62,896 nt of DNA, taken from positions 1 to 62,896 of the forward strand of contig JAGTXO010000086.1 of assembly GCA_019448385.1 (NCBI GenBank), in the 5' to 3' direction. Every line of letters starts with the position of its first letter. The stretch's first letter is position 1. Under the pieces are notes generated by a model. The model saw only the letters and a program-made list of their open reading frames with translations, searched no databases and had not been told where the DNA came from. The translations under genes and the position numbers were made by a program. The stretch comes from Diacronema lutheri. Lineage: Eukaryota; Haptophyta; Pavlovophyceae; Pavlovales; Pavlovaceae. Positions 1 to 30,383 of the stretch are shown in pieces.

Positions 1-451
1 TGGCGACGGCGACGTTTCGTCACTAATCTTGCAGCGCGACGATCGCGTATAGATGGTCAAGCCAAATCCGATCAGGGGCACGATCGCGCCCCGAGTGCAG
101 CGCGGGCCGTTCGGAAGGACGTCCTTGTGAGGGAGCTCTTCGCGTTTGGCGAGCGGGGGAGCACGACGCGCAGCGTTGCTGCGGCGGCGTGCGGGCGGCG
201 AGCAGCGGTCGGGCTGCTCGCGACGAGGCCGGAGCAGACGGCGCCGTGGCCGCCGGCGCAGGTGACGCGCGCCGACGAGCCGTAGCGAGCGTCCGTGATC
301 CGCACGGCGGTTGGAGCGGGCCGGCTGGTGCGGCGCGCTCGGCCACGGGTGGCGGCGTGCACGGTCGTGCCGCGCGCGGCACGCGTCGCCAGCCGCGCGC
401 GACCTGGGCAGAGCCCGCAAAGCGTCGACCGCTGCGCGGCTCGGCCGTGCG
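1..451. other. 3' flank of the Fanzor polyprotein gene, no gene seen
   Basis: No protein-coding gene is supported here. The stretch lies directly downstream, on the minus strand, of the Fanzor stop codon at 454-452. It contains a perfect 12-bp palindrome AAGGACGTCCTT at 115-126 and a GC-rich stem candidate at about 75-92 (GGGGC paired with GCCCC). In Fanzor and TnpB loci the guide RNA is usually encoded at or just beyond the 3' end of the nuclease ORF, so this is the natural place to look for one. That is an inference: no conserved RNA fold and no element terminus can be shown from one copy. The region is GC-rich with many fortuitous open frames on both strands. Confidence 0.4.
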
Positions 452-3200
452 TCAACGCCGGCCGCGCTTCGGCCCGCGCGCGCTGCCGCCGCCGGCACTG
501 GCGCTGGCAGCTCCGCGGGCGGGGGTGCGGGCGCGAGAGCCGCCGCCGCCACCGCCGCCGCGCCCGCCGCCGTCGTCGCCACCGCCGTCGCCGCCGCCGC
601 CTCCCCCGCCGTCATCGTCGTCGTCGCCGCCGCCGCCTCCGTCGCCGTCGCCGTCGCCGTCGCCCTCGCCGCCGCCGCCGTCGCCGCTGCCATCGTCGTC
701 GTCGTCGTCGTCGCCCTCGTCGTCGCCCTCGTCGTCGCCGTCGCACTCGTCGTCGCAGTCGTCGCCCTCGCCGTGCACCATGCGCTCCTCACGCTCCCAC
801 ACCTCGCCGCGCGCCCACCAGGCGAGCACGAGGGCAAAGCGCTCAGGCGTCGACGTGGTGTCGCGCCCGGCCGCGTGCGCCGCCATGTCGTGCACGTCGT
901 AGAAGATGTTGCGCGCGGCGTTGTAGTCGCGGTGCACGGGCTTCTTGCCGCCGTTGCACGCCGGGCAGATGACGAGCGCGTGCACCGTGCGCGTGCCGCC
1001 CTTTGCCACGGGCAGGCGCGGGTTCTGCGCGAGCTCCGCGCCGCAGCGCTGCAGCCTGCCGCCCTTGGCGAGCCGCGGCATCGAGCAGTGCATCGACGTG
1101 TACGGCTCGGGCACGAAGACGGCCGCGACGCCGCGCCGCCGCAGCTCGCGCAGCAGCCCCACCTGGAAGGCGGGCGGCGCGCCCTTGGGCTGCGCGCCCT
1201 TGTGGTCGCGCAGCCACTTGCCCACGCACACGAGCAGCCGGTCGCGCGTCACGCCGTCGACACAGTGCGCCGCGATGAGCGCCTCGGCGACGCGCGCCGC
1301 GTTGGACCGCCCGCCGCTGTCGCGCCGCCAGCGCTCCTTCCGGCGCGCCGGCGCGTCGTACACGTGCTCGGCGGCGCGCTCGCGCACCCGCGCGCTCTCG
1401 CGGTGGAAGGCGTGGAACTCGCCCTCGCCGAGCACCTTGGCGCTGTGCGCCTCGCCAAGCCGCGCCTCGTCCGCCTCCACGCTGAACTCCTCGCCGCGCC
1501 CGTCCTTGCGCACGCGCCGCCGCGCCGCGTTGGTCTTGGCCGTCTCGCGCGCAAAGCCCGCGGCGCGCGCGCGCGCGCGCTGCGTGAACTGCCGCCAGAC
1601 GGCCGCCCGCCCGACGTGCGCAGAGTAGGTGGTGATGTTGCCCATGTTCGGGTCGGCCGCGACGACGACCGCCGCCTCGACGTCGATCGCCCGCCGCAGC
1701 TCGGAGCCGAGCGCGACGGCGATGCGCCCGTCCGGCCGGCGCCAGCGGTGCAGGACGCCCGAGCCGCCGGCCGGCGCCTGCGCCTTCGGCACGAGGACGG
1801 TCCCGACGGCGTGCACGGCGACGCCATCTGTCACCACCGACTTGACGGGCTGCCGGCCCGGGAGCGGCACGCGCGGCAGCGGCGCGAGGCCAACCCACGA
1901 GCGCCGCGCGTGCCACGGCAGATCGGCCGGCGGCCGCTCGCGCCCGGCGTAGTCGAAGACGCGGTTGGAGATGTCGAAGCGCGTCGCAAAGACCGCGTAC
2001 CTGACGCGCACGTCCGACATCGGCGGGGTGTTGCCGTTTGTGCCTGTCCACTTGATCGGCTCGCCATCGTGGTCGCGCAGGTCCAGCGCCTTGAGCCGCG
2101 CGCGCAGCTCCTTGCGCTCGTCATCCGAAAGCGTCACCCAGATGGCGCTCGCGGCGAGGCGCACGTTGCGCGGCACCTGCGCGCAGCGCGCGGCGCGCGA
2201 GCGCGCGGGCGCGTGACCAACCTGGCCGCGGGGCGGCGCGCACGGCGGCGGCGCGCGCGCTTGGGCGCTCGGCGGCGGCAGCGGCAGCCGCGCCTCGCGC
2301 GCACATTGTGCGTGCGCAGCGGCGCCACATTGTACCGCGGCGGCCGTCCGGTCAGCTGCGTGTGGATGTGCGCGAGCCGGCAGAGCAGCGCCTGCCCCTC
2401 GGCCACGTGCTGCAGGGTGCGGATCTGCACGAGGAAGTAGCGCGTCGTGTGCCGGTCGTAGTTCCACCTTTTCGTGGGCGTGCACTTGTAGTCGATCTTG
2501 TGGAGGACCATGTCGGGCAGGTGGCGGTCGAGCGCGGCGGGGCAGCCGACGCGCGCGCCCTCCACGTCGCCGCGCAGCAGCCGCTCGCACAGCTCGCGCA
2601 CGCGCGCGTTTCGCTGCATCTCGGGCAGCGCGACGAGCGCCTCGTCGCGCTCGACTGCCGCGCGGACGACGTTGCGGAGCAGCCCGTTCACGACGCGCGA
2701 TGGATGCATCAGGCACGCGGTGGACACCTGCGTCGCCTCCGCCTCGAGGATCTCCGTGAGGCCCACCGCGCAGACGGGCTGGACGCCCTCGGCCATCTCG
2801 CCGACGGCGCGCGCCGTCGCCGCCTTGGTCTGCGCGGCGGCTTGCTCGGCGGGCTTGCCTCGGGGCGCTGCACCGTACGTGCTCTCGTCCTTGTGCCAGC
2901 CGATGGCCGAGAAGATCGCACGGACGGTTCCCTTGTCCATCGTGGTCGACGTGTGCACGCTGGTCGACGGGCCGCCCGACGCCGCGCCGACGGCCTGCGC
3001 GCTCGCCACCGCAGCCTCGTCGCGCACCACCTTGTTGATGACGCGGTACGCCTGTGTCGTGAGCCTGTGCACGGCCGCCGCGATGCGCCGCAGCTCCTTC
3101 CGCGCACCGGGCTGCGCCGTCACCGCCTGCGGCCCCGCGTTGAGCGTCGAGCGCTTGACCACGAAGCCCGGGAGCACGCTGACGCGCGTGCGCGCCGTCG
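452..3200 (-). other. Fanzor (eukaryotic TnpB-like RNA-guided nuclease) domain
   Basis: This is the C-terminal part of the polyprotein, about residues 5345-6214. An N-terminal helical region is followed by PPRYNVAPLRTHN, a form of the Fanzor block just before the RuvC fold. RuvC-I is ADPNMGNITT (Asp5815). RuvC-II is VPEPYTSMHC (Glu5997, with the E-x-x-T-S spacing typical of Fanzor). RuvC-III is HRDYNAARNI (Asp6057). Four cysteines, 6004, 6018, 6044 and 6047, form the zinc ribbon between motifs II and III; the first pair is spaced C-x13-C rather than CxxC. All catalytic acids are present and the frame is intact, so an active enzyme is plausible. Fanzors are known as RNA-guided DNA endonucleases carried by eukaryotic transposons and large DNA viruses. 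The acidic tail after the RuvC fold may be a disordered extension. Confidence 0.85.
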
Positions 3201-6200
3201 CGCCGCCGGCGGCGCGCGCGCTCGGCGCAGCGGGCTCGTCCACGCGCGCGCGCTCGACGCCGCGCGCGCGGGGAACGCTCGGCGCGCGCGCGCCCGCGGC
3301 GTCGCGCGCGCTCGCGGCGGCACCCGCCGCGGCGCGCTTGCCCGCGGCGCCCGACTCGCCGTGCGCGCGAAGCGGCGCCGACGCCAATGCCGACGCCGCG
3401 CCCGCGCCGCCGCTGCCGCTGCCCGATACGCCCGCGCGCCGCTTCTGCTCGTCGCGCGTCTTGCGGAACTGGGCGACGAGGTCGCTGCTCACGTTGGCCT
3501 CAGGCTCCCACGTGTCGGCGCTCTCGTCGTAGCCCCGCCACCTGATCCGGAACTGGAACGTCACCTTCTTGCCCGCCTTGCGGCGCTCGTCGACGACCGC
3601 CTCGACCTCGTACGTGCGCGCCTCCTCGTCGACGCTCGCGCCCGCCGCGCTCGCGCCCGTGTCCGGCCACCCAGCGACCGTGCCGCCCAGCCTCTCGGCG
3701 GCCGCGCGCAGCTGCCGCTCGCGCTGGGCGGCCGCGGCGCCTCGCGCGACCAGCGCGGGCAGCATGCCCGCGCCGCCCGCGAGGCCGTGCGCGCCGACGC
3801 TGGCGGTCATCAGCGCGTCGAGGCACGCGAACGTTGCGAGCGCACGCGCGCCATCGTCGCCGCCGCGCGGCTGCGAGCGCACGACGGGCGATGGCCGCGG
3901 CTCCCCCTCGGCCGCGAGCAGCGGCCAGATCGCACTGGCCAGCGCGACGGCATGCGCGCCGACCGCGACGGCCACGTCCGCGTCGAGCGGCGCAAAGTCG
4001 TAGCGCACGAGCGCGGCCGGGCGCGAGTCGTCCGTCGGCCGGTCGGCGACGAGCAGCCCGACCGGGCGCGGCGGCTCGCCGGACGGCGCGGCGACGGGCA
4101 CGCAGAGGAGCACGACGAGCAGGCGCGGCGTGCCGCCGAGCAGCGCGCGCGCGGCATCCGCCCCGTCGGCTCCGCCGCGCGCGGCCGCGGCGAGCAGCTC
4201 GGCCGCGCGCGTCGGGCCCAGCGCCGTGCGCGCGTCCTTGCGCGCGCGTGCGCGGGCCGTGTACGCGGCGCAGGCGTCGTCGAGCACCGCCGCGCTGGGC
4301 GCGGTGCCAGTCGTCGCCCACGCGCGCAGCGCGTCGCGCACCCGCGTGACGATCGCCTGGTCGACCGCCGCCTCGCCGGCAGCGTGCGCCGGCGCGCACG
4401 CCGGCGGTGCGGCGGCAGGCGCGAGCGCGGGCGCGCCGTCGGCGCCGTCAACGCCGACGGCGCCGTCGGCGCGCCGCCACGCGAGCTTCGCCTCGATCTG
4501 CTGCCGGACGGCGTGGCAGTGCCGGTCGATGCCGCGCGCGTCGTCGAGCGCGGCCAGCGCGTCCTCAGCGGCGGGACGGCCGCTCGCGTCCGCGACGGCC
4601 TGCAGGCAGAGCAGCGCGGCCGCACGCGCGTTGCACGCGCTCTGCGGCTCGGGCGCGAGCGCGAGCTCGAGCTCGAGCGGCGACGCGCCTCGCGCCGCGG
4701 CGATCGCGTCCATCAGCACGTCCAACCGCTGCACCAGCGCCCTGTGCGCGTCGCGCGGCGCGCCCGTCGACGGCGCGCGCGAGCGCGTCGCCACGAGCCC
4801 GAGCGCGCGCGCCGGCGCGCCCGCCGGCGTGTGCAGCACGAGCAGCGCCGCGCCCGCCAAGCTCGCGTTGCGCGTGACGAGCGCGAAGATGCGCGTCGCC
4901 TCGTGCGCGCCCACCGACGCCCAGATCGCAGCGCGATCGGCGTCCGTCTGCGCGTCGCACAGGTCGCGCACGTCGTCCGGCGCGAGCAGCGCGCCGCCGC
5001 CGGCGGAGCGCGCGACGATCGCCCGCGCCTCCGCCACGAAGACGGCCTGCGGCAGGTCGGCGTGGCGCGCGTCGACGATGGCGCGCGTCGCGTGCACGCC
5101 GAGCTCCACGCCGCGGTAGAAGGCGCGCGCGTTGGCCGCGCGCGCGTGCGCCGGCCGTCCGTCCGCGTTGCGCCTCGCGCGCGCCTGCTTGCTCGTGCGC
5201 GCGAGGCCGTCGCGTGGCAGTGGCGGCAGCGTGGCGAGGAAGCGCGCGGCGGGCGGCGGCGCGCGCACGCCGCGCTGCCGCCGTGCGATGGCCGCGAGCC
5301 GCCGGCCCGCCGCGCTGCCGCCCGCGCCGACGTGCTGCCGGCGGCCGAGCGCCGCCGGTGGCGGCGGCGGCGGCGGCGCGGCGGCGGGCGGCGGCGCGAC
5401 GGCGGGCGGCGGCGCGGCGGCGGGCGGCGGCGCGGCGGTGGGCGGCGGCGCGGCGGCGGGCGGCGGCGCGGCGGCGGGCGGCAGCGGCGGCGGCGCGGCG
5501 GCGACGGCAGCACCAGTCGGCTTGTCCGCCCACGCACCCGAGACTCTGTCCCAGACCTTGCCCCATGGCGCGCGCCCACGCGGCCGCGCGAACTGCCCCG
5601 GCTCGAGCGCCTGGCCGCGCTTGGCGGCGGCGGCGGCGGCAGGGGGCGGGCGGCCGGCGCGCCAGTCGAAGACAGGTGCAACCGTGGCGGCAGGCGCCGA
5701 GTGCCGCGCGTCGGTCACAGAGCGCGTGGTGCGCGCGGCGACCGTGGCACGCCTGGCGGGCGGGCGGTGAGCAGCGCCCGCCGGCGCGCCGGCGGGCGCG
5801 GCCGCCTCGAGCCCGGCGGAGGCGCCGCGCTTGCGCTTGCGCGTGCCGCCGCGCGTGCGCCTGCGCGCGCGCCCGCCGCGCGCCCGTTCGGCCTGCGCGT
5901 CGCCAGCCGCGTCGCCGGCCGCGTCGCCGCGCCGCACGTAGACGACCGCGAACGCCTCCTCGCCGGTCCCGTCGACGCCGCCGCGCGCGCGGCGCAGGAC
6001 CGACCGCCACTGCAGCCGCCGCGCGCGGCCGGGCTCGCACGCAAACCAGCGCCCACCGCGCCTGACGACGGCCACAAAGTCGTCGTCGCGCCGCCCGCGC
6101 CGGCGCGTGCGCAGCAGCACGCACTGCACGTCGAGCCAGCCCTCGTGCCAGTCGGCCGTGCTGGGGGCGACGCGAATCGACTGCGGGAGCTCGACGCCAA

Positions 6201-9200
6201 AGCCGGCGAGGCGCACGATGTGCGCGACGATGACGCTCGAAATGGCGGGGGCGCTCGACGGGTCGCCCGCTGCAGCGAGCACCGCCCCGCCCCAGTGCTC
6301 ACGCGTGACGCAATCCGCGTCCTCGACGTGCACGTGCGCCACGCTCGCGCCGAGCTGGTGCAGCAACGCGCAGATGTCGGCGTCGACCGTCCTCTCCTCC
6401 TCGGCCGCCTCGGCCGTGCCGCGGGCGGCGGCGTCGCCTGCCGGCTGCCCGAGGTACGCGATCGCCCGCTCGACGGCCGCGCGCTCCGCACGCGCTGCGC
6501 TGTCGATCGCCGCATTGCCGACGGGCGCGCGCAGCGCCGCGATCGCGTCTTGCAACGCCGTCGCGTCGCCCGTCGCCGCCGCCGCCGTCACCGCCGCCGC
6601 GCTCGCGGTGCCGTGCGCGACGGCGTGCAGCGCGGCGGCGCGCGCGGCGGGGATGCGCCCGTCCAGCGCGAGCACGAGCGGCGGCCCGGCCGGCGTCTGC
6701 TGCCGCCGGTGCCGCCGGCTCGCAGCCGGGTGGTCGGCGCGCGCGCGCTCGAGCCGCGCGCGCCGCTCGACGACGCGCGCCCAGAAGGCCTGCACCCTCG
6801 GCTGCGCGAATGCAAGCCAGCCGGCGCCGCGCGTCACGACGTGCACGACGATCCGGTCCTCGTGCCTGAGGTACTGCACGTAGAGCGCTTTGCTCACGCC
6901 GAGGACGTGCATGCCGAGCTGCAGCTGATCGCGGTGCGGCTGCGGCGGCCCGTCCTCGTGCGCCGTGGCGCCCGCCTTGGTGAGCGTCTTCACCTCGACG
7001 AGGACCTGCTCGTTGTTTTCGGGGAGGATGGCGAGCCCGTCCGGCGAGAAGGCGAACGGCGCGCTCTTGTCGTGCGGGTCCGCACGCACCATCGGCAGGT
7101 TGCACACGACGGTGATGCCGTACGCGGCCGCCAGCTTGCGCAGCGCGACGGCCTCGCCGAGGATGCCCGCGGTCGTCGCCTTGGTCCGCACCTCGCGCCG
7201 CCGCCGGTGCACGTACTCGTCGGTGAGCGTCTCGTGCGCGACGCCGGCGTTGTCGTTCACGACGTCGCCAACCTTGCTGCCCGTGACCTCCTCCCATCGC
7301 TCGTCGTGCCAGCGCGGGCTGCGCTGCGCGGGCGCGCCCGCGCCGACGGCGTCGAGCACGCGGCGCAGCGCTGTGCCGTCGGGCGCAGCAGGCACGCGCG
7401 CGCGGTCCTGGGCCTCGCGAGCGTCGAGGACGCGGCCCGTAGTGGAATCTTGGGGTAGGTCGAGCTTGCTCGCCTCGCCGTAGCGGCTCTCCAGCTGGCG
7501 CGGTGCGTCGGCAGGGCCGCCGTCCGTGCGCGCACCCGACGCGCCCGCCAGTGCACGCGGCGCAGCGTCCGAGGCGCCCGCCGCGCCCGCGCCGCCGCCA
7601 ATCGCGCCAGCGCACGCGCGCGCCGCGACCTGCGGACGGCCAGCCGCAGGGACCTCGTCCGCTCGGCCGGCCGCTGCGTCGGCCGTCCGCTTGGCCACCT
7701 CGCGCACGTCTCCGAGCGCGAGCGTGGCTGGCGCCGTCCAGCTCCCGTTGCGTTTGTCCCAACATTTGAGCAGCCCGCCAAGGAAGGGCGTGCCCGTCGG
7801 GCGGTCCTCGGGCACCTCCGCCAGGATCGCGTCGACGCGCAGCGCGGCCGCCACATCGCAGAACGCGCGCGCGGCGCGCGCCATCCGCTCGGCGCGCGCG
7901 CCGCCGTCGTCCGCCGCGCGGCGGATGGCGTGGCTCACGTGCGCGACGCGGAGCGAGACGACGGCGTGCGCCGGCGCGTCGGCGCCCGTGCCGAGCGTGT
8001 GCCGCCGGATGGCCAGCTGCCCATCGCCCATGCGCGGCGGCAGCGACGCGCACGCCGCGACGGTCGTCGTGCCGGCCGCGCTGTCGCACAGCCAGCTCGC
8101 CTCGCCGCCGCCCGCAAACTCAAAGGTCGCGAAGCCCTCGCGGCCGAAAAGCGCGACGAAGTGGTCGAGCACCGCCTTGTTGATCGCGCGCGCCGCCGGC
8201 CGCGTCGATGCGCCGCGGGCAGCGCCACCCGCCGCGCCGCGCGCATCGCTGCACGTCGCAGGGCAGGTGCAGCCGGAGGCGCGCACGCCGTCCGACCGCG
8301 TCCGCGGCAGCTCGAGCTCGCGCACCTTGGGGCAGAACCAGAGCGGGTTGGACGCCTCGAGGCACAGCACGACGAGCCGCCCGTCCGTGCCGGCCAGCGC
8401 GCGCGCGTCGCGCAGCAGCTCGACGGCGAGCTCGGACGTCGCCGCGTGCACCGCCGGCTCGCCCGTCGCGCGGTCGGGCGGGAAGAGGCCGCCGCCGACG
8501 AGCGGGCTGGGGCAGCGGCCGAGCATCACGAGCAGCGGCGGCGGCGGCGTCTGCGGCGCCTGCTGCCCGACCGCAGCCGCCGTCAGCCCGGCCAGGTCGG
8601 AGCTCGTGCGGAGGGCCTTGAGCGCGACGCGCGAGCCGGTGCCCGCCTGCTCGGAAAACGTGGCGAGCATGGCGCACGTGCTCGCCCTCGCGCCGCACTG
8701 CCAGCTGACGCGCGCGAGGAGGCCTTCCAGCGTGTCGTTTTCGCGCGGCCGCGTGACCGCGTCGAGCGCCGCCGGGCCGAGCTGGAGGCTGCCGGGCGTG
8801 ACGCACAGCACCGCCTCGTGGTAGGCGCGCAGCAGCTCCCTCGGCAGCTGCTCGGCGGGCGTCGCCGCCTGCCCGCCCACCCACCGTGCACCGTGGCCGC
8901 CGTCGCCCGCGCCCGCGAGCCGGACCGCCGGCCCGCCCGTGATCGCCGAGGTCGGTGGCGTGCCGAGCGCGTCGACGAGCGCGCGCACGGGCGCGACACG
9001 CCTGCGCGCAGCGTCCGCGCCGACGGCGAGCGCGGCGATCTGAGCGCCGTCCCATGCGCGCTCCCTCGCGTCGTCCCGCGCGGCCGCCGGCGCGGCGCCC
9101 GGCCGCGCGCCGGGCGGCACCGCGCACGCCGCCGCGACGACCTCCGCGCGCGCGCCGGCGGCGTCGGGCGCGTGCAGCTGCGCGAGCGCGCCAAAGAGCG

Positions 9201-11025
9201 CGGCGGCCGAGCGGTAGCGGCCGTGCGCCGCGACGAGCGCGTAGAGCACGCGCAGCGCGGCCACGCCCGCCTGGTCGGGCGCGTCGCCAGCGATTTGCTC
9301 GACCTCCCACGTGCGCGTGGGCGGCGGGCTGCCGTCGGCCGGGTCCGGACGCAGCGCCCACGCGCGCTCGACGATCGCGTTGAACACGCCGTGCGCGGCG
9401 CCCTCGTCAAACTCGGCGGCGCCCGCCGCGTGCGCACACCACCCGTGCACGCGCGACGTGGGCGCGTCCACGGCGCGCTGCACGACGAGCACCGCCGGCC
9501 GGTCGACGCAGCCGAGGCTCACCGCCGCGTGCTTGCCCTCGAGCAGCGCCGCCGCCGCAGCCTCGACCAAGGCGTCATCAGGCGCGTCGCCGACGACGAC
9601 GGCACAGCCGTCGCCGTACTCGGCCTGCATCGCGGCGACGCACGACGCGACAAAGTCGCCGCCCGCGGCCGCCGCGTGTCGCGCCGCCAGCATCCGGCGC
9701 GCGATGGCAAGCCAGACGTACTCGGCCGGCGCGCGCGCGGCGCGCGCGCGAGGCGCGCCGGCCGCGCCGCGTGCGCCCGCGCGTGCGCCTCCAGCGGCCG
9801 CAACGGCCGAGGCGGCTGGAGCGGCGGTGAGCGTGCGCCGCGCGCGCTTCGCCGGCCGCGTGATGGGCGATGCACCCGCCATCGCACCGCCCGCAGCAGC
9901 CGGTGCGGCCGCCACAGCGCCCGCCGCAACGCCACTCGTCACGACGCCCGTGGCGGGCGGCGCGGCGGCGGACGTGGCCGCCTCGACGGGCGTCGCGCAA
10001 CTACCGCCAGCGGTCGCGGACGCGCCCGGCGACGCGTCGGCGAGGAGGTGGCGCAGCACGCCGCGCGCGAGCGCGACTCGCACGGCGAGCGTCAGCGCGC
10101 GCAGGCGGTCGGAAGGCGAGGCGTCGCGCTCGGCGTCGGCGGACGTGGCGGCAGCAGGCGGGGCGGCGGGCGGCACGGCGGCGGGCTGGGCGGCCGTCGG
10201 CGCAACCTCGTCGGCCTTGGCCAGCCAGACGAGCCCGGCGACTGCGAGCACGACGCTGTACGCGCCGACATCGTCACCCGCAACGCGCGCCAGCCGGGCG
10301 TGGGCGTCGGCCTCGGACACGGCGACGTGGAAGAGCACGTCGTCGCGGGCAGCTTGCTCGGCAAACTGACGCAGCTGCTTGGCCATCGTCACGCCGGCGA
10401 CGCACGCCTCGCCCGCCTCTGCCTCGACCTGCTCGTCCTGGCCGATGGCGGACGCGCCGGCCTCGGCGCCAGCGTCGAGTGTCCGGCGGCGCTCGAGGGC
10501 GAAGCCACGCACACAGACGCGCTGGAGGCCGCCGAGCGCGCCCGCCTTCTCGTGCAGCGCGCACGACAGCTCGACCACCGAGTCCACGCGCCTCGCGGCG
10601 GCGCCCCCCCGCTCGCCGCGCGTGGCCGCGCGCACGACGAACACCGTGAATTGCGCGCGCTTCGCCGCGCGCGCCGACGCGCACGCGTGCTTCAGGAGCC
10701 GGCAAAGCGCGGGCCTTTGCGCCGCTGCGCCCCGCGTGCACAGCAGCAGTTGGCCGCGCTCGTCGCCCAGCTCCTGCTCGACGGCGGCCTCGAGCGCGTC
10801 GTCCGTCAAATCGCCGTGCTCCGTCGAGGCGAGCGCGCGCGCAGCCGCGAGCGCCAGCTCGCCTGCGCCCGCGCGCCGCCGGCGGCGCGCACCGGCGGGC
10901 GCGTGCGGCGCCGACGCGTGTGACGACGCCGCCGCGTCCGCGCGCGCACACGCGGCGCGCAACGCCTCACGCGCCGAGGCGGCCGCGCGCGCCCTGGGCG
11001 CGAGCTTCAAGAACGTGCGCGCGGC

Positions 11026-11101
<76 letters not shown>

Positions 11102-14100
11102 TCGCCCGCGTCGCCGGCCGGCGGCGGCGGTGGCGGCGGTGGCGGCGCGGCCACGGCGGCGGCAGCAGCGGCGGCGGCGGCGGTGGCGGCGGCGGCGGCG
11201 CCCAGCGCGGGCGGCGGCGGCGTGGCGGCGGCGGTGGCGGCGGCGGTGACGCCAGCGGCGGCCTTGGCGCCGCGCGTCTGCGGCGGCGTTTCGGCGCCAT
11301 CGGGGCTGCCCCCGCCGCGCACCGCGCTCGTGACCGCGCAGACGCCGCCCGGCGCACGATCGCTGGCCGCGCCGGTCAGCGCGACGCGGAGGCGCTCGCC
11401 GACAGCGTACATGTCCGCCACGCTGAACGTGCGCGGCGCGGACGAGCAGCCCGCCGCGGCGAGCGCGTCGTTGAGCGCGCCCACTATCGCGAGGCCGCAC
11501 GTCGCGCCACGCTGCGCCGCCTCGTTGAGCAGCAGCGCGCGGCGCACGCGCGAAATGTCGAGACCCGCCGCGTGCAGCGTGGCAGTTATCGCCTTGGCGA
11601 GCATGAGCGCCTGCCTGCAGGGCGACGCGAGCGTGTCGACGAGCACCGCGTCGTAGCGATGCTCGCCCGCGCGCGCGACGCGCACAAGGCGCAACGCGGT
11701 GAAATGGCCGGAGGCGAGCTGCGCGCCGTCGTCACCGCCCGCGCCGCCGCGCTCGTCCGACGGGCTCCACACGCCGATGACAGCCTGCGTTGTCGCCTCG
11801 CTGCGCAGGCGGTGCAGCAGCGCGGCGCGCTCGGCGTCGTCCTGAAACACCGCGGGTTGCGCGGCGAGCGGCACGTGGCAGACATGCCCGCCGCCGGCCT
11901 GCCCGTGCACGCGCAGCACGACCTCGCAGCACGCGTCGACGGTTGAGGCGAGCATGTCGCCGCTGGCGATGCGCTCCACCTCTGCCTGCGGGAGGCCGGC
12001 GCTCGCGGCGGCGGCGGCCAGCCGGCGCGCAGCCGCGTCGCCCGCCCACGCAAGCAGCGCCGAGTTGGCGGGTTGGAGGGGAAGCTCAAGGGCGGCTGGT
12101 TCGGTGGCGGTAGCCTCGTTGGCAACGGGCACGTTGGCGGTGCGCGCGTTGGCGGCGGGCGCGGCGGCGATGGCTGGTGGGGCGGAAGACGCGCCCGCGG
12201 CGGCGGGCGCGGACGCGGCAGCGGCAGCGGCTAGTGGGGCGGGGAAAACGCCGTCGGTGGCAGGCGCGGAGGCGAATGCAGGAGCAACTAGTGGGGCGGG
12301 AAAATCGGCGGCAGGCGCGAAGGCGGATGCAGCAGCGGCTAGTGCGGCGGGGAAAACACCGTCGGCGGCAGGCGCGAAGGCGGATGCAGGAGCGCCCAGC
12401 GGGGCGCAGAAAACACCGTCGGCGGCAGGCGCGAAGGCGACAGCAGCAGCGGCCAGTGGAGCGGAGGCGCAGGGCCACGCGCGCGCCAGCCGTGCAAGCC
12501 CAAGCCGCGCGCGAGCGACGCACGCGCCGATGGCCGAGGCGGCGGCGCAGGCCACGACGTGGCCTGGCACCGGTGTGGCCAGCCGCTCGCGGGTGTGCAC
12601 GTCGAGCCGCGCCCCACGCCAAGAGCGGCGGCGCGCTGAACGGAGGCGCGCGACCCCGATCGATCCGCCCGCGCACGCGCGCGCCGGCTCAGTGTGGCCA
12701 ACGCGCGCCGCTATGCAAGGCGCGCGCGCGATAACGGCGGCTGTCGGCCGTGGCGTGCGCGTGGCGGCGCCGCGGCGACGGGCGCGGCACACGAGCCGCT
12801 CGGGCGCGCCGCCGCCGCGCGGCACGATGTCGAGCAGCACGGTCACGCCGCGCGCGCGCGCGACCGCCGTGCACGCGAGCCGCACGGGCAGCGGCGGCCC
12901 GTCCGGGCGCGCGAGCGCCGCCACCTCGGCGTCGGTGAGGCTGTGCAGCTCGCGGCGCGCGCGCGCGAACGCGGCGATGTCCGCGCGCAGCTCCGCGTCC
13001 GTGCCGAGCGCGGCACGCGCGTGCACGGGGAGCGACGCGCGCAGCGCGTGGAGCACGCCGCCGCGCGCGCCGCGCGGCGCCGGCGCGCGCTCGCGCTCAG
13101 CGCGCGCGGCGCGCGTGAGCTCGCGCACCGCGCGCGCGAGATTGCGCCGCGCGGCCGCGACGGGAGGGCTAGGTGCGCGCGCGCGCCGGTTGTAGCGCGG
13201 CCGCGCCGAGTCGAGGGGCGGCGGACGCGGTGCGTACGCCGCGGCGCGGCCCGCGCGCCAAAAGGCCGGCGGCGGGCGCAGCTCCGTCGCGTCGACCGCG
13301 GCCGCGAGCGCGCCGAGCGCGGCGTCGCTGTCGCCCGCCGCGTCGGCCGCGTCGACGAGCACGAAGAGCGCGCCGAGCGCGCGCGACGCGGCCGCCTGCG
13401 CGGCGGTGGGGCGGGCGCAGGCAGCGACGCATGCGGCCGCCATGCCGCGCGCCGCGGCGAACGCCGGTGACGTGACGGCCGCGCCGATGGCAACGGCGGC
13501 GGCGGCGACGGTGGAGGCGGCAGCGCCGGCGATGGAGGTGGCAGCGGCGGCGGCGCTTGCCATCGCGCGGCGCGCGAGACGCGAGGCGCCACCGACCGCC
13601 GCCGCCGCAGCGCGCGCTGCGCGCGCGCCGGTGGCGCGCATCGTCGCCGCGCCAGGCGCCGCCGCGCCGACGCCGCCGGCGCCCGCGCCGTCGCCGCTCT
13701 CGGCCGTGCAGGGCTCCGATGGCGAACCCGGCGTGCGCTGGCGCGTGATGCGCGCGCCGAGGCGCGCGCTCCGCGCCGCGCGGCCGGCGACGTCGAGGAA
13801 GCGCCGTGCGCGCGCCGCGCGCAGGCCACGCGCGCGCGGCGGCGCACCGACAGGCGCCGAGCGCCGCGGCGCGCACGCCGGCGCGTCGCTGTCGGGTTGC
13901 GCAGCGCGCGCGCGGGAACTCGGCGCGGCGTGTGCGGGCGGCGGGCGCGCGCCCGCGCGGCGCAGAGGCGCGAGGCGCCGGCCGCAGACGAGGCGTGTGC
14001 GCAACCAGGACGGCGAGGGCCGCAGGGCGCCGTCGACGTCGCGCATCGGCGGGCCGCGAGCCCGCCGCGCAGCCGTGCGGCGCGCGCGAGGCGCTCGGCG

Positions 14101-17100
14101 GCGCGCGCGCCGCACGGCGCGCGCGGCGGCGCGCACGCCAGCGACGGCTGCGGCCACGCCGCGCGCCAACACGGCCGCGGCGTGCGCCATCGCACCGAGC
14201 ACGGCGCGTGGCGCGCCGAGCAAGCGCAGCAAGCGCGACGCCGTCGCGCGCGCCGGCGCACCGTGTGCAGGGGCCTCGCCAGCGCCAGCACCGACGCCGC
14301 CATCGCCGCAGCCGCAGGTGGCGTCGCCGCCGCCGCAGGCGTCGCGACGGACGCCGCCGCCGCCGAAACAACCGCCGCACACGTCGCCGCCGACGTTGCC
14401 ACCCCAGCCGCCGTTGCGTGCGCAGGTGGCTGCGGCGCGTGCGTGCGGGAGGCGTGCCGTGCGGCGCGCATCACACGGGCTGCGCGACGCGAGCGACGCC
14501 GCCGGGGTCCCCGCTGCGCCAGGCGCGCCGTGCGCGCCAGCCTCGCCGGCCTCGCCGGCGCGCGGTCGCGCGCTCGCCTCGACGTGGCCGCCTCCGCCGC
14601 CATCGCCGCCGTCGAACCGGGCGGCGGAGGGCTGCCGCTCGAACCGCTCGTCGGCGTCGGCCGCCACCGCCGCCTCGCGCTCCGCCGCCGCGGCGGCCGC
14701 ACGGCGCGCGTGGCGGAGCGCGCGGCCGCCGTCCGCTGCGCGGCGTGGCGGCGCGGGCGCGGGCTTCGGCGCGCGCGGCCCCTCGGCGCGCTCGCGGAGC
14801 ACGGCGAGCGGCGTGCCCGTGGCGACGCTCGTGCAGACGCGCCGCAAGGCGGCGCTTACGCACGCGTGGACGACGCGCGCCGTCCGCTTGTCGGCGGCGC
14901 GCGCGGCGCGGCGCGCGGCCTTGGCGGCGGCCTTTTTGGCGCGCCTCTGCTCCGCCTGCTCCGACAGCGCGCGCGCCTGGCGCTCGGCTGCGAGCGCGTC
15001 CTCGGGCGAAACGGTCGGCCTCGGCGGCCGCGCGCGCGCGCTGCGACGCTGCGCGCTGCGGCGGTCGGACGGCGGCTGCCGCGGCGGCGAGGACGGCGAG
15101 CGCGAGCTCGGCGTGGGCGACCAATCGCCGCTGACGGTTGCGAGCGGCGCAAACGGGTTGTCGTCCCCGCGACCCGCGGCGTGCGACAGTGCACGCGGCG
15201 TCGGGCGCCGGCCGACCGCTGGCGGGCCCCACTCGGACGGCGGCTCCGAGGGCGAGCGCGCCGTCGGCGCCGCGCGTTGCGCGGCCGGCGGCGCCTCCCG
15301 GTCCAGCGCCGCCTGCTCTCTCGCCGCGGCCTGCTCGTCACCCTCCGGCACGCCACGCGGCGCGAGCACCGCGGTGGCGCAGCGCGTCGCGTTGAGCAAC
15401 GCCGCCTCCATCTGCCGCACGCTGGCCTTGGCGCACGCCACACCCTGTCTCGCCCGGCGCAGCGCCTCGTGCGCGCGGCGCACTTCCGCGTCGGCATCTT
15501 CGCGCATGCCAAAGTGCGCCTGTTGCAGCCGCAGGTCCGCAGGGCGCCCCTGCGCGCGAGGGGCACGGGCGCGGCGGCGCGCAGGTGACGGAGCTGGCGC
15601 GCCGTTCTGCGCTGCGCGCACGCCAATCGACGGGCGCGCGCGCGGCGGGGCGCGCGCGCGCGCGCGCGCGCGCGCTGCCTACCCAGCCGCCGGCCGGCTC
15701 GCGCGAGCGCGCCAGCTGCTCCGCCGCCTCGGCGTCGAGCACGCGCTGCTGCGCCTCCTCCTCGCCCAGTGCAGCGAGGTGCAGCCGGCGGGCTGCCTTG
15801 CGGCAGTTGCCCTCCGCCTTGCCCACGGCCTTGCGCGCCGCGTCGACGGGGTCGTCGTTGGCTCTGGCGCGCCTGCGCTTGCCCTTGTCGGCGGGCGGCG
15901 GCTTGGCGCGCTGCAGCGTGCCGAGCGCGTCGTCGGCTCCGCGCGCGGCCGCCCGCGGGCGGCGGGCCCCAAAAAGCGCACCGGTCGCCGTGCGCGCCGC
16001 GCAAGCAACGACCAGCGCTGACATGCCGGCGAAGACCGCACCGCCCAGCGCCACGGTTGCCACGATGCGCAGCGTCCCGTGCGCAAGCTGCGCTGCCTCC
16101 GCCGCTTTGGCGGCCTCGCGCGCGCGCGCATCGGCGGCTCTCATCTCGTGCAGCAGCCCGGCCGCGCCGCTCGCGCCGTCGCGGCCGCGCGCGAGCTCGC
16201 ACAGCACCGCCGCCGCGCGCCGCGTGGGCTCGCGCGCGAGCAGCTGCGCGCCGCCGTCGGGGCGCAGCTTCTCAACGAACTCGACAAACGTCGCGTCGCG
16301 CCAGAGGGACATGCGGAAGGCCCTGTGCACCGCCCCCTCCTGCTCGCGCATCCGCCGTGCCGCCCGCCTGCCGTCGCGCGCGTGCGCGTGCGCGGCCGCG
16401 TCGAATCCCGCGACGCCGCGCTGCGCGTCGCGCGCGGCCGACGACGGCGCCGCCGCGCTGCCCGCCAAGGGCGCCGCAGCGGCGACGCGCGCGTGCGGAG
16501 CGACGGGATCGCCGGCGGCCGGCGGCTCGGCGCGCTGCGGCGTGCCGTTTGCTCCGCGCGCGGCCGTCCCGGGGGAGATGGCCGCGATGGCGCCGCCAGC
16601 CGCGCCGCGCGCCAGCCACGCGCATAGGCTGCCGACGAGCTCGCCGAGACCCCCGACGGTCGCCGCGGCGGCGAGTGCGCCGGGCTTGCCGGCCGACAGC
16701 GGCTCGCGAGCGTCGTCGTCGCAGCCGCCGGCACCCGTCTTGGCGAGTGCGTCGCGCTCGCCCTCGACGCCCGCCACGACCGCCGCCCCTCCGTCGTCCG
16801 CCGCGCCGGCCGCGCGCGCGGCCGGGCGCAGAGGAGGCGTGCCGGTGCAGCCGTCGCCGCTCGTCTTCGCCGTTTCCTCCACTTTGGTCACTTCGTCGCC
16901 ACCTGCGCCATCTCCGACGCCGGGGCCCTTGGTCACGCTTGCCGCCATGCGCGCCGTGCCCGCCGGCCAGCCCGCCGACTGCTCGAGCGCGGCGGCGAGC
17001 GGCGCGACGCGCGTCGACTCGGGCGCGCTCTCGTCATCGGGCTCGAGCGCGTTGTGCAGGCGCGCGAGCGCGCGCTCGACGGCCGCGGCGCCACTGCCGG

Positions 17101-19357
17101 GGGCGCGGCTCGCCGCGCGCACCGCGCGCCGCCAGGCCGGCGCGAACATGAGCGCCGGCTCGAGCGCCGCGAGCGCGCGCGCCTCGCGCGCGTCGCTCGC
17201 GCCGAGGCGCGGCGGCACGCGCGCGGCTCCGCGCGGCGCGGTGCCTCGGAAGCGTGGGCTCAGCGTGTAGGCGAGGTGCTGCGGCACGCCGCGCGCCTCC
17301 GCGCGCGCGCGTCCGTCCTCGACCTCGCGCCGCGCCTTCGCGATCGCCGGCGTGGCGCGCGCGAGCCAGTCGGGGTCGGCGGGCAGGTGGATCACGACGA
17401 GAATCGGCGCCCAGTCCAGCCGCGGGTTCTTGTGACGGTCGGGCACGACCCACACGAGCAGCACCGTGCCCTCCGCGCCGCACGCCGCCTCGTAGATCCT
17501 GGGCTGCGAGCGCCAATCGGGCCTGACGCGCAGCGCCCGCGCGTGGTCGATGGCGGCGGCGCGGTCGCCATTGAAGTGAACCGTCGTCACCTCGCCGATG
17601 ACGGACCGGCCGGACCGCCAGCAGAACACCGCGTCCGCCGACCCGCCGGCGATGGCCGCGAGCGATTCGGGCGCGGCGAGCCGCGGCAAGCCCTCGAAGG
17701 CGGCAAAGTCCTCGTGCGCATTGTACACGCCGCCCCAGCCGTCGTGCGCGTACGCGCGCGCGGCCGCTCGTACCGCGCGCGGCTGGTTCTCCACGCCCGA
17801 CGTCATGTGCCATGTCGTCCCCGCGAAGCCGGGCTCGCCCAGCTCGGCCCGCACGACGGCACCGTACCCCGCGCCCTGCGTCGGGGCGGCGAGGTGGTGC
17901 ATGCCCGCGCCGGTCACGCCCTCCGTGCGCTGCCGCGTGACGATCGTGCCCGTCGCGTGCGCGAAAAGCGTGTCGACCACGGCGGGCGCGCGCCCGCTGT
18001 TCGCCCGTAGCCGCGCCCTGCCCGCTTTTAGCTGCTCGGGGTCCTTGGCGTCGTACACGCGCGCGTCCGCGTCGCCCTCATCAGGCGCAGTGTAGACGCA
18101 GCGGCGTTCGAGCGGCGCCGAGCCACCGCCGTCCGCCGCCGCCGGCGAGGTTGGCGCCGCGCCCGCCGCCACCGCGCTCGTCGCCGCCGTGCCCGTCGCC
18201 ACCGCCGCAGCCGCCGCGCCCGCGGGGTCGTCGTCCCCGTCCTCCGCGCCCTCCCCGTCGTCAGCGGTGGTGGCGTCGCCATCGTCCCCGTCGCCCTCGC
18301 CCCCGCCGAGGCTGCTGAATGGTCGGGGCCCCCACGCCGAGGCGGCGCGCCGCTGCGGCGCACGCGGCGGTGGCGCTCGCGACGGCGGCCTTGGCGCCGC
18401 CGCGCCGCGCGGCCTGGCCGCCGTCGACAGCGCGCGGCCTGCAGCGCCCGTGAGCGCGTCGAGCGCGGCCGTGCGTGCGATGCGGTCGTCGGGCGCGCGC
18501 AGCGCCGCCTCGACGGCCTGCAGCAGCCCGTCGGGCGCGGATCCGCCGACACTGGCATCGCACGCCTCGGCGAGCCGCGCGGCCTCGGCGAGCCGCGCGG
18601 CCTCGCGGGTGAACGGGCCGAAGCGCCTGGCGCGGTCGCCGAGCAGAGCGCCGATGGCGGCGCGGAGCGTGCGCGCGCGGGTCTCCTCGTACGCGGCCGT
18701 CGTGAGGCGCGCGAGGCGCGCGTCCAAAGCCTTCTTGATGTCGACAAGGACACTCGCGCGGCGGCCGTAGAGCGTCGATGCGCTCGCCACGACCTCGGCC
18801 GCGACTGTTGCCGCGGCGAAGCAACACGCGGCCCCACTCTGCGGGGGCGCCTTGAAGGCATCGATGGGCGGCGCTGTTCTGCCGATGCGCTGCGCAAGCT
18901 TCTTGATGAGCACGCCGGCCGCCGTGGCGTACGCCGATTCGCCGTTGCCCAAGGTGCGCGAATCGGCGAGCAGGGCGAGCGCGGCGCCGGGCGGCGCGCC
19001 GCGCTGCGCGGGCGGCGCGAGGAGCAGGTACGCCGCCGTCCAGTGCACGAGGCCGCTGGACGCGCGGAGGCAGAGCGGTAGCACGACCACGAGCACCTGC
19101 CCAAACCGGTCCGCATCCGCGCATGCTTTGCGCAGGTTGCGCAGCGCCACCTTGAGCGCATGCTGCGAGCACCCCGTGTCGCCCACCCTAACCCTGCTCG
19201 TGCCGAAATCCGCGTAACGCAGCAGGGCGATGAGGCAAGTGGATGGGACCACGTGGGGGTGGGTATCTCCCGGCGACAGAATGGTGCTGAGGGCCAGCGA
19301 GAAACTGTCCGAGCCGCCCCGCCCGCCGGGCAAAGCGTCCTTCACGGAGTCCTCCAT
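452..19357 (-). CDS. Giant multidomain polyprotein ending in a Fanzor nuclease (about 6,214 aa)
   Basis: Three open exons, 19357-15683, 15549-2305 and 2176-452, join in phase 0 at both junctions across GT-AG introns of 133 and 128 nt. The start is the ATG at 19357; an in-frame TGA lies 21 nt upstream, although the bases before the ATG read CTGCAG, so an upstream exon spliced to it is possible. Predicted order: Ulp1-like peptidase (His105, Asp132, Gln173, Cys178/179); hydrophobic segment near 1092-1128; second Ulp1-like segment (His2507, Asp2530, Cys2576); polyalanine near 2656-2732; YqaJ-like nuclease (Asp4062, Glu4077, Lys4079); chromodomain near 5200-5255; Fanzor from about 5345 to the end (Asp5815, Glu5997, Asp6057). 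The C-terminus is an Asp/Gly-rich tail. Exon 2 alone is open for 4,415 codons, too long for chance even at this GC content. Alternatives are several genes in one open frame, or a polyprotein cleaved by its own peptidases. Single-gene status is less certain than the domain calls. Confidence 0.65.
2177..2304 (-). other. Intron 2, inside the Fanzor coding region
   Basis: The 128-nt segment starts GTGCGC at 2304 and ends GCGCAG at 2177 on the minus strand. It separates the Fanzor N-terminal part (ending PLRTHN) from the catalytic part (starting VPRNVRL). Both exon ends fall between codons. Without splicing, the N-terminal frame runs on through arginine-rich nonsense to a stop at 2134, and the catalytic frame has no sensible start. 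The splice restores one continuous Fanzor. Confidence 0.7.
3468..3624 (-). other. Chromodomain within the polyprotein
   Basis: Residues about 5200-5255 read YEVEAVVDERR, then FRIRWRGYDESADTWEPEANV, interrupted here for length, then a helix rich in Lys and Arg. The hydrophobic-aromatic pattern Y...(F/Y)xIRWxGY...TWEPE is that of chromodomains, including the aromatic residues of the methyl-lysine cage. Chromodomains bind methylated histone tails and in chromoviral integrases steer insertion to heterochromatin. Here the domain lies about 90 residues before the Fanzor. Confidence 0.85.
6720..7330 (-). other. YqaJ-like PD-(D/E)XK nuclease domain in the polyprotein
   Basis: Residues about 3966-4170. 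The family's opening motif is visible as RWHDERWEEVTGSKVGDV (W...R...T-S). The catalytic core is SPDGLAIL (Asp4062) followed by VLVEVKT (Glu4077, Lys4079), then a helix with HRDQLQLGMHVLG, matching the usual Gln-bearing helix. YqaJ/lambda-exonuclease family enzymes act in phage recombination and occur in eukaryotic viruses and transposons. All core catalytic residues are present. Confidence 0.85.
11026..11260 (-). repeat. GCC/GGC trinucleotide runs encoding polyalanine
   Basis: A near-perfect GGC run at about 11026-11100 and mixed GGC/GTGGC stretches to 11260 encode long alanine and proline runs (about residues 2656-2732). The tract sits between the second Ulp1-like segment and the next part of the polyprotein, as a linker would. 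Its copy number is probably unstable. Confidence 0.85.
11380..12100 (-). other. Second Ulp1-like peptidase segment
   Basis: Residues about 2376-2616. ASGHFTALRLV gives His2507, AVLVDTLASP gives Asp2530, and NEAAQRGATCGLAIVGAL gives a Gln and Cys2576 with the C-G pair typical of C48 peptidases. The upstream part (DMLASTVDACCEVVL) resembles the N-terminal helices of the family. All triad positions are filled, so it may be active. Confidence 0.55.
15550..15682 (-). other. Intron 1 of the polyprotein gene
   Basis: On the minus strand the intron begins GTAGGC at 15682 and ends GCGCAG at 15550, 133 nt in all, with a CG dinucleotide run inside (about 15655-15677). Both flanking exons are cut exactly between codons, so removing it fuses the 1,225-codon upstream frame to the 4,415-codon downstream frame. 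The frames differ without splicing, which is why an unspliced reading shows two separate ORFs overlapping at 15338-15621. Confidence 0.6.
18770..19180 (-). other. N-terminal Ulp1-like (C48) cysteine peptidase domain
   Basis: Residues about 60-195. A hydrophobic strand VLVVVLPLC precedes the histidine motif GLVHWTAAYLLL (His105). LLADSR supplies the aspartate (Asp132). PPQSGAACCFAAATVAAEVV supplies the oxyanion Gln173 and the nucleophile Cys178 or Cys179. The H-W / D-S / Q...C order and spacing match Ulp1/SENP peptidases, which cleave SUMO-like proteins and are common in large eukaryotic transposons. Sequence identity is low, so substrate is unknown. Confidence 0.65.
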
Positions 19358-21266: not shown

Positions 21267-21299
<33 letters not shown>

Positions 21300-22080
21300 A
21301 TCGGCGGACCGATTGCGTTTTGGTGCGCCAGGCTCAATGCGCCATCGCAGTGGCGGGCCCGCAGACGCAGACGCTGACATGCCCAACGCTGGGCACTGAG
21401 GCCGCAGGCCGGCCCTCCTGGACCTGGCGGGCGAGCTGCCCGCGCAGCGGCCACGCGAGCCTCGCACTGACCGTGGCGGTCGCTGCCACCGTGATAGCTG
21501 CGGGTGCGGCGGCCTTGGCCCCAACCCCATCATCCGTCTTCATCCCCGCCCTGCTCGCGCTCGCGGCCTACGTCGGCAATCCCTGCACCGGGATCCGCCC
21601 CGCGAAGTCCACACAAGACTTATCCGTGCTGCACGCCAGCCGCGCGCGCCGACGCGCGCCGCTCCCACACGCTCACCTCCGTTTCCGCGGGCGGCCCAAC
21701 GCCCCCCCCCCCCCCCCCCCCCTCCCCCCCCCCCCCCCCCCCGGCAGGCGGCCATCGAGCCGCATTAGCACACCCGCCCGGGGCCTCCCGCCGCACCCGC
21801 AGCGGCTCGGCGCCTTGAATCCTCCCGTCCCCCGGGGTGAGGCCTTCAACCCGGGCCCAGCGCGCTCCGACTGCCTCACGCGCGCCAGCGCCAACCTCGG
21901 CGGCATGGTAGACCCCGAGCGAAAAGCCGCACTTCTCGCCGTCCTCGTCAGGCGCAAGTACGTTATCCTGCTCCTACTGCCGACGCGGCTCCCGCGCGCG
22001 CGGACTACTACGCCGGGCAGATCGCCGCAGACGCACGTGAGTGCACACGTGCGGACAAGGCGCACACGCTCGACGTCCAG
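19358..22080. other. Gap between polyprotein and USP-like gene
   Basis: No complete gene model can be supported. Short stretches look protein-like on the plus strand (for example GPDDTWENLHDALENAP near 19400 and LVTDEAAKLAILAALG near 20790) and on the minus strand near 20800, but none can be tied to splice sites with matching phase. C homopolymers occur at about 19877-19898, 21268-21298 and 21701-21742. The stretch may hold 5' exons of the polyprotein, remnants of another element, or nothing functional. Confidence 0.4.
21836..21995 (+). pseudogene. Possible remnant of a LINE endonuclease start
   Basis: The plus-strand frame reads EAFNPGPARSD, then RASANLGGMVDPERKAALLA, then VRRKYVILLL. Many non-LTR retrotransposons have an N-P-G-P motif before the endonuclease, whose first strand reads like S-x-N-V-x-G-L-x-D-P-x-R followed by a D-I-x-x-L-Q-E strand. 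Here the catalytic Asn-like strand is recognisable but the expected Q-E-T is missing. No reverse transcriptase follows in the window. This is a weak call based on one short match. Confidence 0.25.
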
Positions 22081-22287
22081 TTAGCGCACGTGCACGTGCG
22101 CGCCACTGGTCACATTTGAGCGTCCGTGCTCGCCCACAGCGTCGCCATCCACAAGATGCGCGCTGGAGCCATCCAAGCAGGGCTCTGCCTGCTCGGCTTC
22201 CGCAAGGCAATTTGGGCCGCGGACAGCGGACAGCGGACGGCGTGCGCGTGCGAGGTGCGAAAGGAGGAAGAAGGTAGGGAGAGTTGT

Positions 22288-22318
<31 letters not shown>

Positions 22319-30350: not shown

Positions 30351-30383
<33 letters not shown>

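Follow-up and report, generated by a model that had tools for sequence, protein, structure and literature searches.

Introduction

The Fanzor proteins described so far are compact, with sizes of 400 to 700 residues (PMC10432273) and mostly 600 to 700 residues in the case of Fanzor1 (PMC11423790), and their biological roles remain unknown (PMC10432273). Carriers of Fanzor1 include the Helitron2 elements CRe-1/2/3 of Chlamydomonas as well as Mariner, IS4-like, Sola, and MuDr transposons (Bao and Jurka 2013, PMC3627910). In this study, we analyzed a stretch of 62,896 nucleotides from the haptophyte alga Diacronema lutheri (contig JAGTXO010000086.1 of assembly GCA_019448385.1; hereafter "the window"), which contains a 31,057-bp repeat. 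Most likely, this repeat is a DNA transposon that carries a Fanzor as part of a predicted giant polyprotein.

Like the Fanzor1 transposons, this element holds a motif-bearing Fanzor inside a mobile element, and the algal CRe Fanzors are likewise split by introns (PMC3627910). The Fanzor of those transposons is described as a separate protein, whereas in D. lutheri it would form the C-terminus of a 6,214-residue chain together with an exonuclease and a chromodomain. The same exonuclease domain is recognized in phage exonucleases of the RecE/YqaJ type (PHROG 434, TIGR03033), which are part of recombination operons and not, as here, of a giant eukaryotic reading frame. Chromodomains occur in other mobile-element proteins as well, and the integrases of chromovirus retrotransposons carry one that is used to aim at heterochromatin, but the Pfam matches in D. 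lutheri include neither a reverse transcriptase nor an integrase. Finally, the ISL2EU transposons (PHIS; PMC4482050) resemble the D. lutheri element in having a YqaJ exonuclease of their own and terminal inverted repeats, but they also have a DDE transposase, duplicate AT, measure about 4.8 kb, and come from animals, none of which is the case here. An earlier, sequence-only reading of this locus had called its architecture undescribed, and in the open-licence literature we indeed found no such Fanzor, nor any pairing of Fanzor and YqaJ.

Results

A giant gene of three exons

The giant gene makes up three fifths of the element and is read on the minus strand, as are all features below unless stated otherwise. 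In agreement with the initial prediction, three exons of 1,225, 4,415, and 574 codons join in phase, with a single terminal stop, to encode 6,214 residues. Exon 1 (15683..19357) starts from an ATG and exon 2 spans 2305..15549, both delimited by frame length, periodicity, and codon-usage profile, while exon 3 (452..2176, 574 codons plus stop) holds the Fanzor core followed by an acidic/glycine-rich tail. The two GT-AG introns of that prediction stand as well: intron 1 (15550..15682, 133 nt) and intron 2 (2177..2304, 128 nt), which splits the Fanzor part, both read GT...AG, and the coding signal switches frame at each of them. The spliced product of 632 kDa is alanine-rich and has long low-complexity linkers between stretches of higher complexity.

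Long frames are common in DNA this rich in G+C and were therefore tested against dinucleotide shuffles. The stop-to-stop frames of 4,514, 1,345, and 1,015 codons exceed every frame in 100 shuffles of the respective stretches (at most 1,734, 1,014, and 800 codons with all six frames considered), so that chance is excluded as their source. Third-position G+C in the proposed frame lies at 0.85–0.98 in 30 of the 31 blocks of 600 nt that cover the whole gene (the exceptional block, 12502–11903, has 0.74), and around 15.5 kb and 2.3 kb the coding signal moves to another phase. In a codon-usage profile, the frame of exon 1 stops at about 15,680, the three minus-strand frames carry no coding signal until about 15,550, where the frame of exon 2 follows, and these frames are likewise silent at about 2,305–2,180; the profile was trained on the exons of the giant gene itself, at least 120 nt from the junctions, which makes its height circular but not its change points. 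In other copies of the element, a 2-nt insertion falls into intron 2 (L075), and the indels in exon 3 sum to multiples of 3 (L076 and L078). Judged by their frames and codon statistics, the three predicted exons are real, and the sequence supports a single reading unit in which the Fanzor and the chromodomain are joined with a recombination exonuclease.

The same DNA might instead encode several proteins. The Fanzor, perhaps along with the chromodomain, would then arise from a promoter or start codon inside the gene or from alternative splicing, and other products would be encoded by the long frame upstream. This would agree with the size of described Fanzors (400–700 residues, PMC10432273), with the 28 internal methionines upstream of the Fanzor core in the frame of exon 2, and with the low-complexity linkers, which suggest independent units. 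It is harder to reconcile with a coding signal that keeps to a single, stop-free frame between 15.55 and 2.3 kb (one 600-nt block excepted), with a gap of merely 133 nt between exons 1 and 2 that leaves little room for a terminator and a promoter, with an exon 1 frame that remains stop-free for about 340 nt past the end of its coding signal, and with a Fanzor that is completed only by the joining of exons 2 and 3. We consider separate products unlikely and find it very probable, given the predicted exons, that one gene of a mobile element carries the RecE/YqaJ exonuclease, the chromodomain, and the Fanzor.

Fanzor, exonuclease, and chromodomain

Five domain types had been proposed along the chain, of which profile searches bear out the YqaJ nuclease, the chromodomain, and the Fanzor, whereas the Ulp1-like peptidases appear as motifs alone. 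A profile check of the nuclease domains, set beforehand as a refuting test, recovered both of them, with an E-value of 4e-6 for the TNB domain of the Fanzor and of 4.5e-16 for the PHROG RecE-like exonuclease against the YqaJ segment.

The Fanzor moiety (452..3177), recognized by its TNB domain and motif, reaches from about residue 5350 across intron 2 to the end of the chain. Its Cas12f1-like TNB domain (PF07282, 905..1144) scores 27.3 bits against a cut-off of 26.3. The published Fanzor motif, D-X(125,275)-[TS][TS]XX-C4-X(5,50)-RD (PMC3627910), is present completely and in order, with TSMHC at residue 6000 and RD at residue 6056; the zinc-RD half occurred in 0 of 500 shuffles, and D5815 (AADPNMGN) is one among six aspartates that fit the pattern. 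When solved structures were searched with the spliced Fanzor part (phmmer), the best nuclease was Cas12f1 at an E-value of 0.35. By itself this part comprises about 750–865 residues, in frame with 5,349 residues upstream, and thus lies beyond the compact range of 400–700 residues, which is the usual size of Fanzors and no criterion of homology. Downstream of the stop codon, a 3′ non-coding stretch (46..451) extends up to the end of the element and is the expected place of a Fanzor guide RNA; Rfam gave no match there.

A second Fanzor family in this genome (e.g., G000:C9:378667 and C69:650235) outscores the TNB domain of the element, with 43.9 bits at 13 places and 44.5 bits at one. It was considered as a relative (L001–L008) and dismissed after tblastn gave no match at 1e-5. 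Upstream of an element 5′ end with the variant start GTATATAGGG, at a distance of about 1.8 kb, lies another, different Fanzor-like match (L065:348-554, minus strand).

The YqaJ/RecE-like nuclease domain of the lambda-exonuclease fold (6901..7311) was recognized by Pfam, PHROG, and TIGR03033. Pfam reports it with an E-value of 0.031 on the whole exon and of 5.2e-4 on its own segment (20.7 bits, cut-off 22), and TIGR03033 matches that segment at 4.9e-7 (30 bits, cut-off 68). SPDGL, VEVK, and DQLQLG follow each other in an order that fits the D...ExK...Q layout, and we take them to contain the catalytic residues. A sequence search of solved structures with this segment returned no exonuclease. 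The chromodomain (3460..3612) is matched by PF00385 with 45.8 bits and an E-value of 5.7e-12 and aligns to the solved chromodomains of CDYL and HP1 with E-values down to 8.1e-9; its Y, W, and Y presumably sit at the cage positions of HP1.

The sequence-only reading had further suggested that the polyprotein is cut by Ulp1-like domains of its own, a claim for which we found motifs and no profile match. Motif A (18821..19051, residues 103–179) and motif B (11494..11712, residues 2505–2577) both show an H-D-Q-C series, a pattern that was fitted after seeing the sequence and occurs with a mean of 0.024 per shuffle. All four residues of motif B survive in a decayed relic of the gene (L063). No Ulp1 or other peptidase family was matched by ten product segments in Pfam at E-values up to 10, and none by product segments in the prokaryotic NCBIfam library at E-values up to 1; a comparison among eleven product segments, putative peptidases included, yielded no pair above z 4. 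AlphaFold predictions without alignment gave mean confidence scores (pLDDT, predicted local distance difference test) of 40.8 for a putative peptidase and 32.8 for a second segment, too weak for use. The profile-supported peptidase of the element is a UCH/USP domain in an open frame separate from the giant gene.

A repeat with fixed ends and about two hundred copies

The claim that the giant gene is element-encoded was strongly corroborated by its position inside a 31-kb repeat, whose ends are fixed and whose end words occur more than 200 times in the genome. The whole element (46..31102, 31,057 bp) has its 5′ end at 31102 (CTATATACGG...) and its 3′ end at 46 (...CCATCTATACG). At the 3′ boundary, 40 matches were scored (848 candidates), and 38 of them stop at window position 46 or within a few bases outside it; the exceptions are the window itself and contig C54, in which the 45 outer bases are the same. 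At the 5′ boundary, all 39 scored matches stop at 31102 or overrun it by no more than 8 bases. Junction reads show that the flanks differ between copies while the ends of the element stay fixed. The terminal 10 bp on either side are imperfect inverted repeats of each other (7/10 identical). The 3′ end, read at 20 distinct junctions, is CTATACG in 16, CTATAC with another base in three, and CTA in one, and there are variant 5′ ends (CTATATAGGG, CTATAGAGGG, and GTATATAGGG).

No target-site duplication was seen in 12/12 complete junction pairs. With small offsets, the longest string common to both flanks measured 3 bp (mean 1.83 versus 1.35 in 132 mismatched pairs); flush to the ends, common strings had 0–2 bp, with means of 0.50 or 0.42 versus 0.44 or 0.35 for either 3′ end. 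Insertion between A and T was not preferred in the junction reads, of which 10 came from the left side and 18 from the right (16 of these distinct).

Counted as 20-mers with at most one mismatch, the 5′ end word occurs 248 times in the genome and the 3′ end word 218 times, with zero matches for reversed controls. The contigs C1–C41, for which both lists of ends are complete, contain 85 three-prime and 98 five-prime ends, and pairing each of the former with the nearest 5′ end on the same strand within 45 kb gave 56 pairs, leaving 29 three-prime and 42 five-prime ends unpaired. Among these pairs, 24 are 30.5–31.6 kb long, 15 measure 25–30.5 kb, 12 measure 20–23 kb, four are longer, and one is shorter. 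Scoring of 150 out of 306 candidates with the TNB profile gave at least 148 matches across the genome, and at least 109 of them share the identical E-value of 7.1e-6. The copy number of this element is on the order of two hundred. LINE-like 5′ truncation (long interspersed nuclear elements, LINEs) was considered when an exact 14-mer yielded 114 five-prime words against the 218 three-prime ones, but the fairer 20-mer count is the 248 given above, and three copies seemingly without a 5′ word had variant 5′ ends.

Several observations concern the ends and their surroundings. Positions 1–2400 of the window are identical over 2,400 bp to G000:C54:105303-107702, the 45 outside bases included, and may overlap with it as pieces of one locus. 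Seven contigs (C1, C8, C12, C14, C32, C33, and C90) begin or end at the 3′ end of the element or up to 45 bases from it, so the element probably limits assembly. The left flank of one copy (L045 / L066–L070) stops exactly where the sequence shared within another repeat family ends (...GTAAGCGCCGTTAGT). Short, conserved stretches that start with CTATATACGGAGCG at L071:11, L072:104, and L073 (minus strand) agree with the 5′ end of the element in its first 10 bases and may be a promoter-like motif or a small repeat; we rejected these short repeats as autonomous relatives, as three loci revealed no similar proteins and the sequence common to two of them amounts to only about 190 bp.

Other genes of the element and its affiliation

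Upstream of the giant gene, a PIF1-like helicase is encoded in two blocks, of which the first (26491..27660; PF05970, 3.7e-14, with coding signal) has an approximate downstream end and the second (25634..26530; PIF1 1.8e-24, Pif1_2B 6.2e-13) approximate exon limits. The first block includes an unassigned N-terminal extension of about 310 residues; about 245 residues ahead of the helicase domain (26926–27660) have no family match. The USP/UCH-type ubiquitin peptidase frame (22735..24228; PF00443 at 4.3e-8, best stretch 23260–23526) has a weak coding signal, and no solved structure matched it at 0.01. A possible gene on the plus strand (29383..29931) shows coding periodicity in 29303–29902 and no Pfam match. 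The element also contains a large palindrome with CCCTACA repeats (28217..29103, no strand assigned), which is nested and near-perfect, recurs in L065, L079, L080, and L081, and may be either a foldback element that inserted there or a structure with a function.

This inventory can be compared with other kinds of elements. A rolling-circle transposon (Helitron or Helitron2) with a Fanzor passenger, as in green algae, would account for the PIF1 helicase and the absent target-site duplication; Fanzor1 is known from both Helitrons and Helitron2 (PMC3627910), and short hairpins can be drawn by eye near both ends. Yet a genome-wide search for the HUH Rep domain gave a single match, on contig C63 and none in the window, the ends read CTATATACGG...CTATAC rather than TC...CTRR, and insertion between A and T is not preferred, all of which makes a Helitron very unlikely. 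A slim chance, in our estimate, falls to a relative of the ISL2EU/Spy (PHIS) transposons. The YqaJ domain, the short inverted repeats, and the lack of a duplication speak for such kinship, given that the second protein of ISL2EU is a YqaJ exonuclease and that Spy elements have no target-site duplications (PMC4482050). On the other hand, the DDE_Tnp_4 domain (PF13359) has 15 matches in the genome and none in the window contig (C90), there is no AAATTT target as for Spy, and the ISL2EU families of PMC4482050, which average about 4.8 kb and duplicate AT, come from animals only.

The element might also be an integrated virus or virus-like plasmid (polinton-like or derived from giant viruses) and not a transposon. 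PIF1 helicases and RecE-like exonucleases occur in large DNA viruses, the size of 31 kb and the unrelated insertion sites without duplication would fit, and a weaker PHROG match of the exonuclease segment is labeled as a virion structural protein (2.1e-7). Fanzors have been found in large DNA viruses, too (PMC3627910). What makes a virus improbable to us is that the Pfam matches of the scanned frames include no capsid, polymerase, or packaging family, that a scan of viral contigs with five queries, whose reach is limited to close relatives, found no relative, and that the genome holds more than 200 end words. The genome-wide matches of the Helitron Rep (1), phage integrase (16), and PHIS-type DDE (15) profiles all lie outside the window. 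For tyrosine recombinases, this refers to PF00589, and the scanned frames of the window contain none by Pfam; a Crypton profile was not searched genome-wide, and PF00589 can miss eukaryotic Cryptons because of their divergence. Two of the phage-integrase-like matches (G000:C17:194914-195378 and C69:95472-95945) precede element 5′ ends of the same orientation at distances of about 4.5 and 1.5 kb, which may be chance given the many copies.

Young copies, relics, and a mosaic copy

Most sampled copies are 97.8–100% identical, and decayed relics are present as well. An 801-bp probe from the 5′ end of exon 1 found 100% identity in 40/40 scored copies (178 candidates). Nine of ten 5′-side stretches of about 9–10 kb are 99.5–99.7% identical to the window (one of them, L025, only to window position 26.3 kb), while the tenth, L021, reaches 90.9–98.7% in its main pieces, and four copies compared over 3.8 kb have 97.8–99.6% identity. 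These identities show recent amplification of the element. Nine further loci around Fanzor matches comprised five protein-level matches, one with the 5′ end only (L065), and three without a match; L059, L060, L061, L063, and L064 are apparent relics of the giant gene. We also considered classes with internal deletions that would interrupt the Fanzor frame (open frames of 626–767) and dismissed them for the four copies of this kind that were read: over 3.8 kb these copies follow the window colinearly, and their open frames are shorter because stops lie in the non-coding frame upstream of exon 3.

One copy of the 21.6-kb class (C43) is a mosaic. It is 99.6–100% identical to the window in one probe close to the 5′ end and in three probes at 9.7–5.7 kb and 86–90% identical in three probes at 25.4–25.1, 23.5–23.3, and 11.7–11.5 kb; one probe remained unmatched, and the sequence at about 23–12 kb, exon 1 included, is missing. 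The fused domain order seems to exist in this second form because C43 is, by position, colinear with the window from 9.7 to 0.9 kb; its sequence was read for the chromodomain and for most of the Fanzor, and its exonuclease stretch was placed by position alone. An upstream piece of 901 bp is open in 3/3 forward and 2/3 reverse frames; a different N-terminal part is only possible, since open frames say little in G+C-rich DNA. The mosaic would result from recombination between element lineages and fits a recombinogenic element.

Discussion

We consider a Fanzor-carrying transposon with a fused giant gene and the mechanism outlined below to be the best explanation as a whole, with a probability of roughly 0.55. 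The giant chain would be made as one protein and perhaps be cut by a peptidase of the element (USP-type or Ulp1-like), and its chromodomain would tether it to methylated chromatin. With a guide RNA that stems from the element's 3′ terminus, the Fanzor would cut DNA where the element is lacking or where another copy of it sits; the RecE-like exonuclease would then resect and the PIF1 helicase unwind, leading to repair from a filled copy. Such break-and-copy repair could keep and multiply the copies and mix element lineages, while dispersal to unrelated sites would need a further recombinase or transposase, either as a hidden domain of the chain or in trans. TnpB-type elements keep their copies by cutting, and the D. 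lutheri element perhaps works like them. Taken by itself, the proposal that an RNA-guided cut and resection promote copying is tentative and rather doubtful. Bolder still, and in our view very unlikely on present grounds, is the idea of an RNA-guided recombination machine in one polypeptide, in which the Fanzor would cut, the RecE-like exonuclease resect, and the chromodomain address silent chromatin, and which would thereby multiply a 31-kb element by break-induced copying from filled sites without a conventional transposase.

A number of results weigh against this explanation. Expression as one chain is a prediction from the sequence. The spliced Fanzor part found no match to a solved Fanzor in the phmmer search, which uses a single sequence and is of low sensitivity, and exon 3 scores 14 bits against the NCBI TnpB model (cut-off 100). 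The 3′ stretch folds no better than its shuffles (z −0.91 and −0.80), which neither shows nor excludes a guide RNA. A known transposase domain is absent among the matches in the window, the flanks of the copies are unrelated to each other, a pattern that homing by itself would leave unexplained, and the joined flanks of five pairs yielded no clean empty site. In that search (5 of 7 pairs), one pair lay beside another repeat family, and the rest matched little but themselves. The coding frame of PIF1 changes again near 25.9 and 25.4 kb and thus more than once, so the helicase gene of the window copy may be interrupted. The mosaic copy, too, could stem from ordinary recombination between repeats.

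Selection belongs to the same side of the balance. The ratios of nonsynonymous to synonymous changes (pN/pS) of four young copies against the window are 1.09, 1.27, 0.95, and 4.05 (the last from 11 changes), and one of these copies (L078) has a stop codon while the other three have none over 3.8 kb; recent purifying selection is therefore not visible. The relics have pN/pS values of 0.75–1.36, four of them with frameshifting indels in exons and the fifth with two stops. With values close to 1 in young copies and relics alike, the family might no longer be selected, and the window copy would look intact but be passive, having spread in trans. The frames that are open over 6,214 codons in the window, the coding frames free of stops in 3/4 young copies over 3.8 kb, and the strong codon bias speak against this, and we regard it as quite unlikely. 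The transposon with a fused giant gene stays our preferred explanation; as far as its sequence goes, this is a real, unusual gene in a real mobile element, of which single-chain expression and function are putative.

If this is right, a high-copy, recently amplified element combines a Fanzor, an end-processing exonuclease, and a chromatin reader in one frame, and this shared frame suggests a testable role for a Fanzor in break-and-copy maintenance of its element. The giant mobile element would also form much of the repeats in a compact algal genome: extrapolated from 218 copies and the mean of 28 kb of the 56 pairs in C1–C41, it would occupy about 6 of 43.5 Mb, which is probably an upper value. 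The D. lutheri genome has been reported to contain 22.9% repeats, with elements bearing long terminal repeats at 32.7% and LINEs at 3.8% of the masked bases, and the text of that paper has no word starting with "transpos" (PMC8379373). Outside the element, the window contains a 67-bp tandem repeat of about 21 copies (37769–39279) and, on the plus strand, a fragment of a cytochrome P450 gene (52158–53912; PF00067, 4.7e-25), an ordinary host gene near the element.

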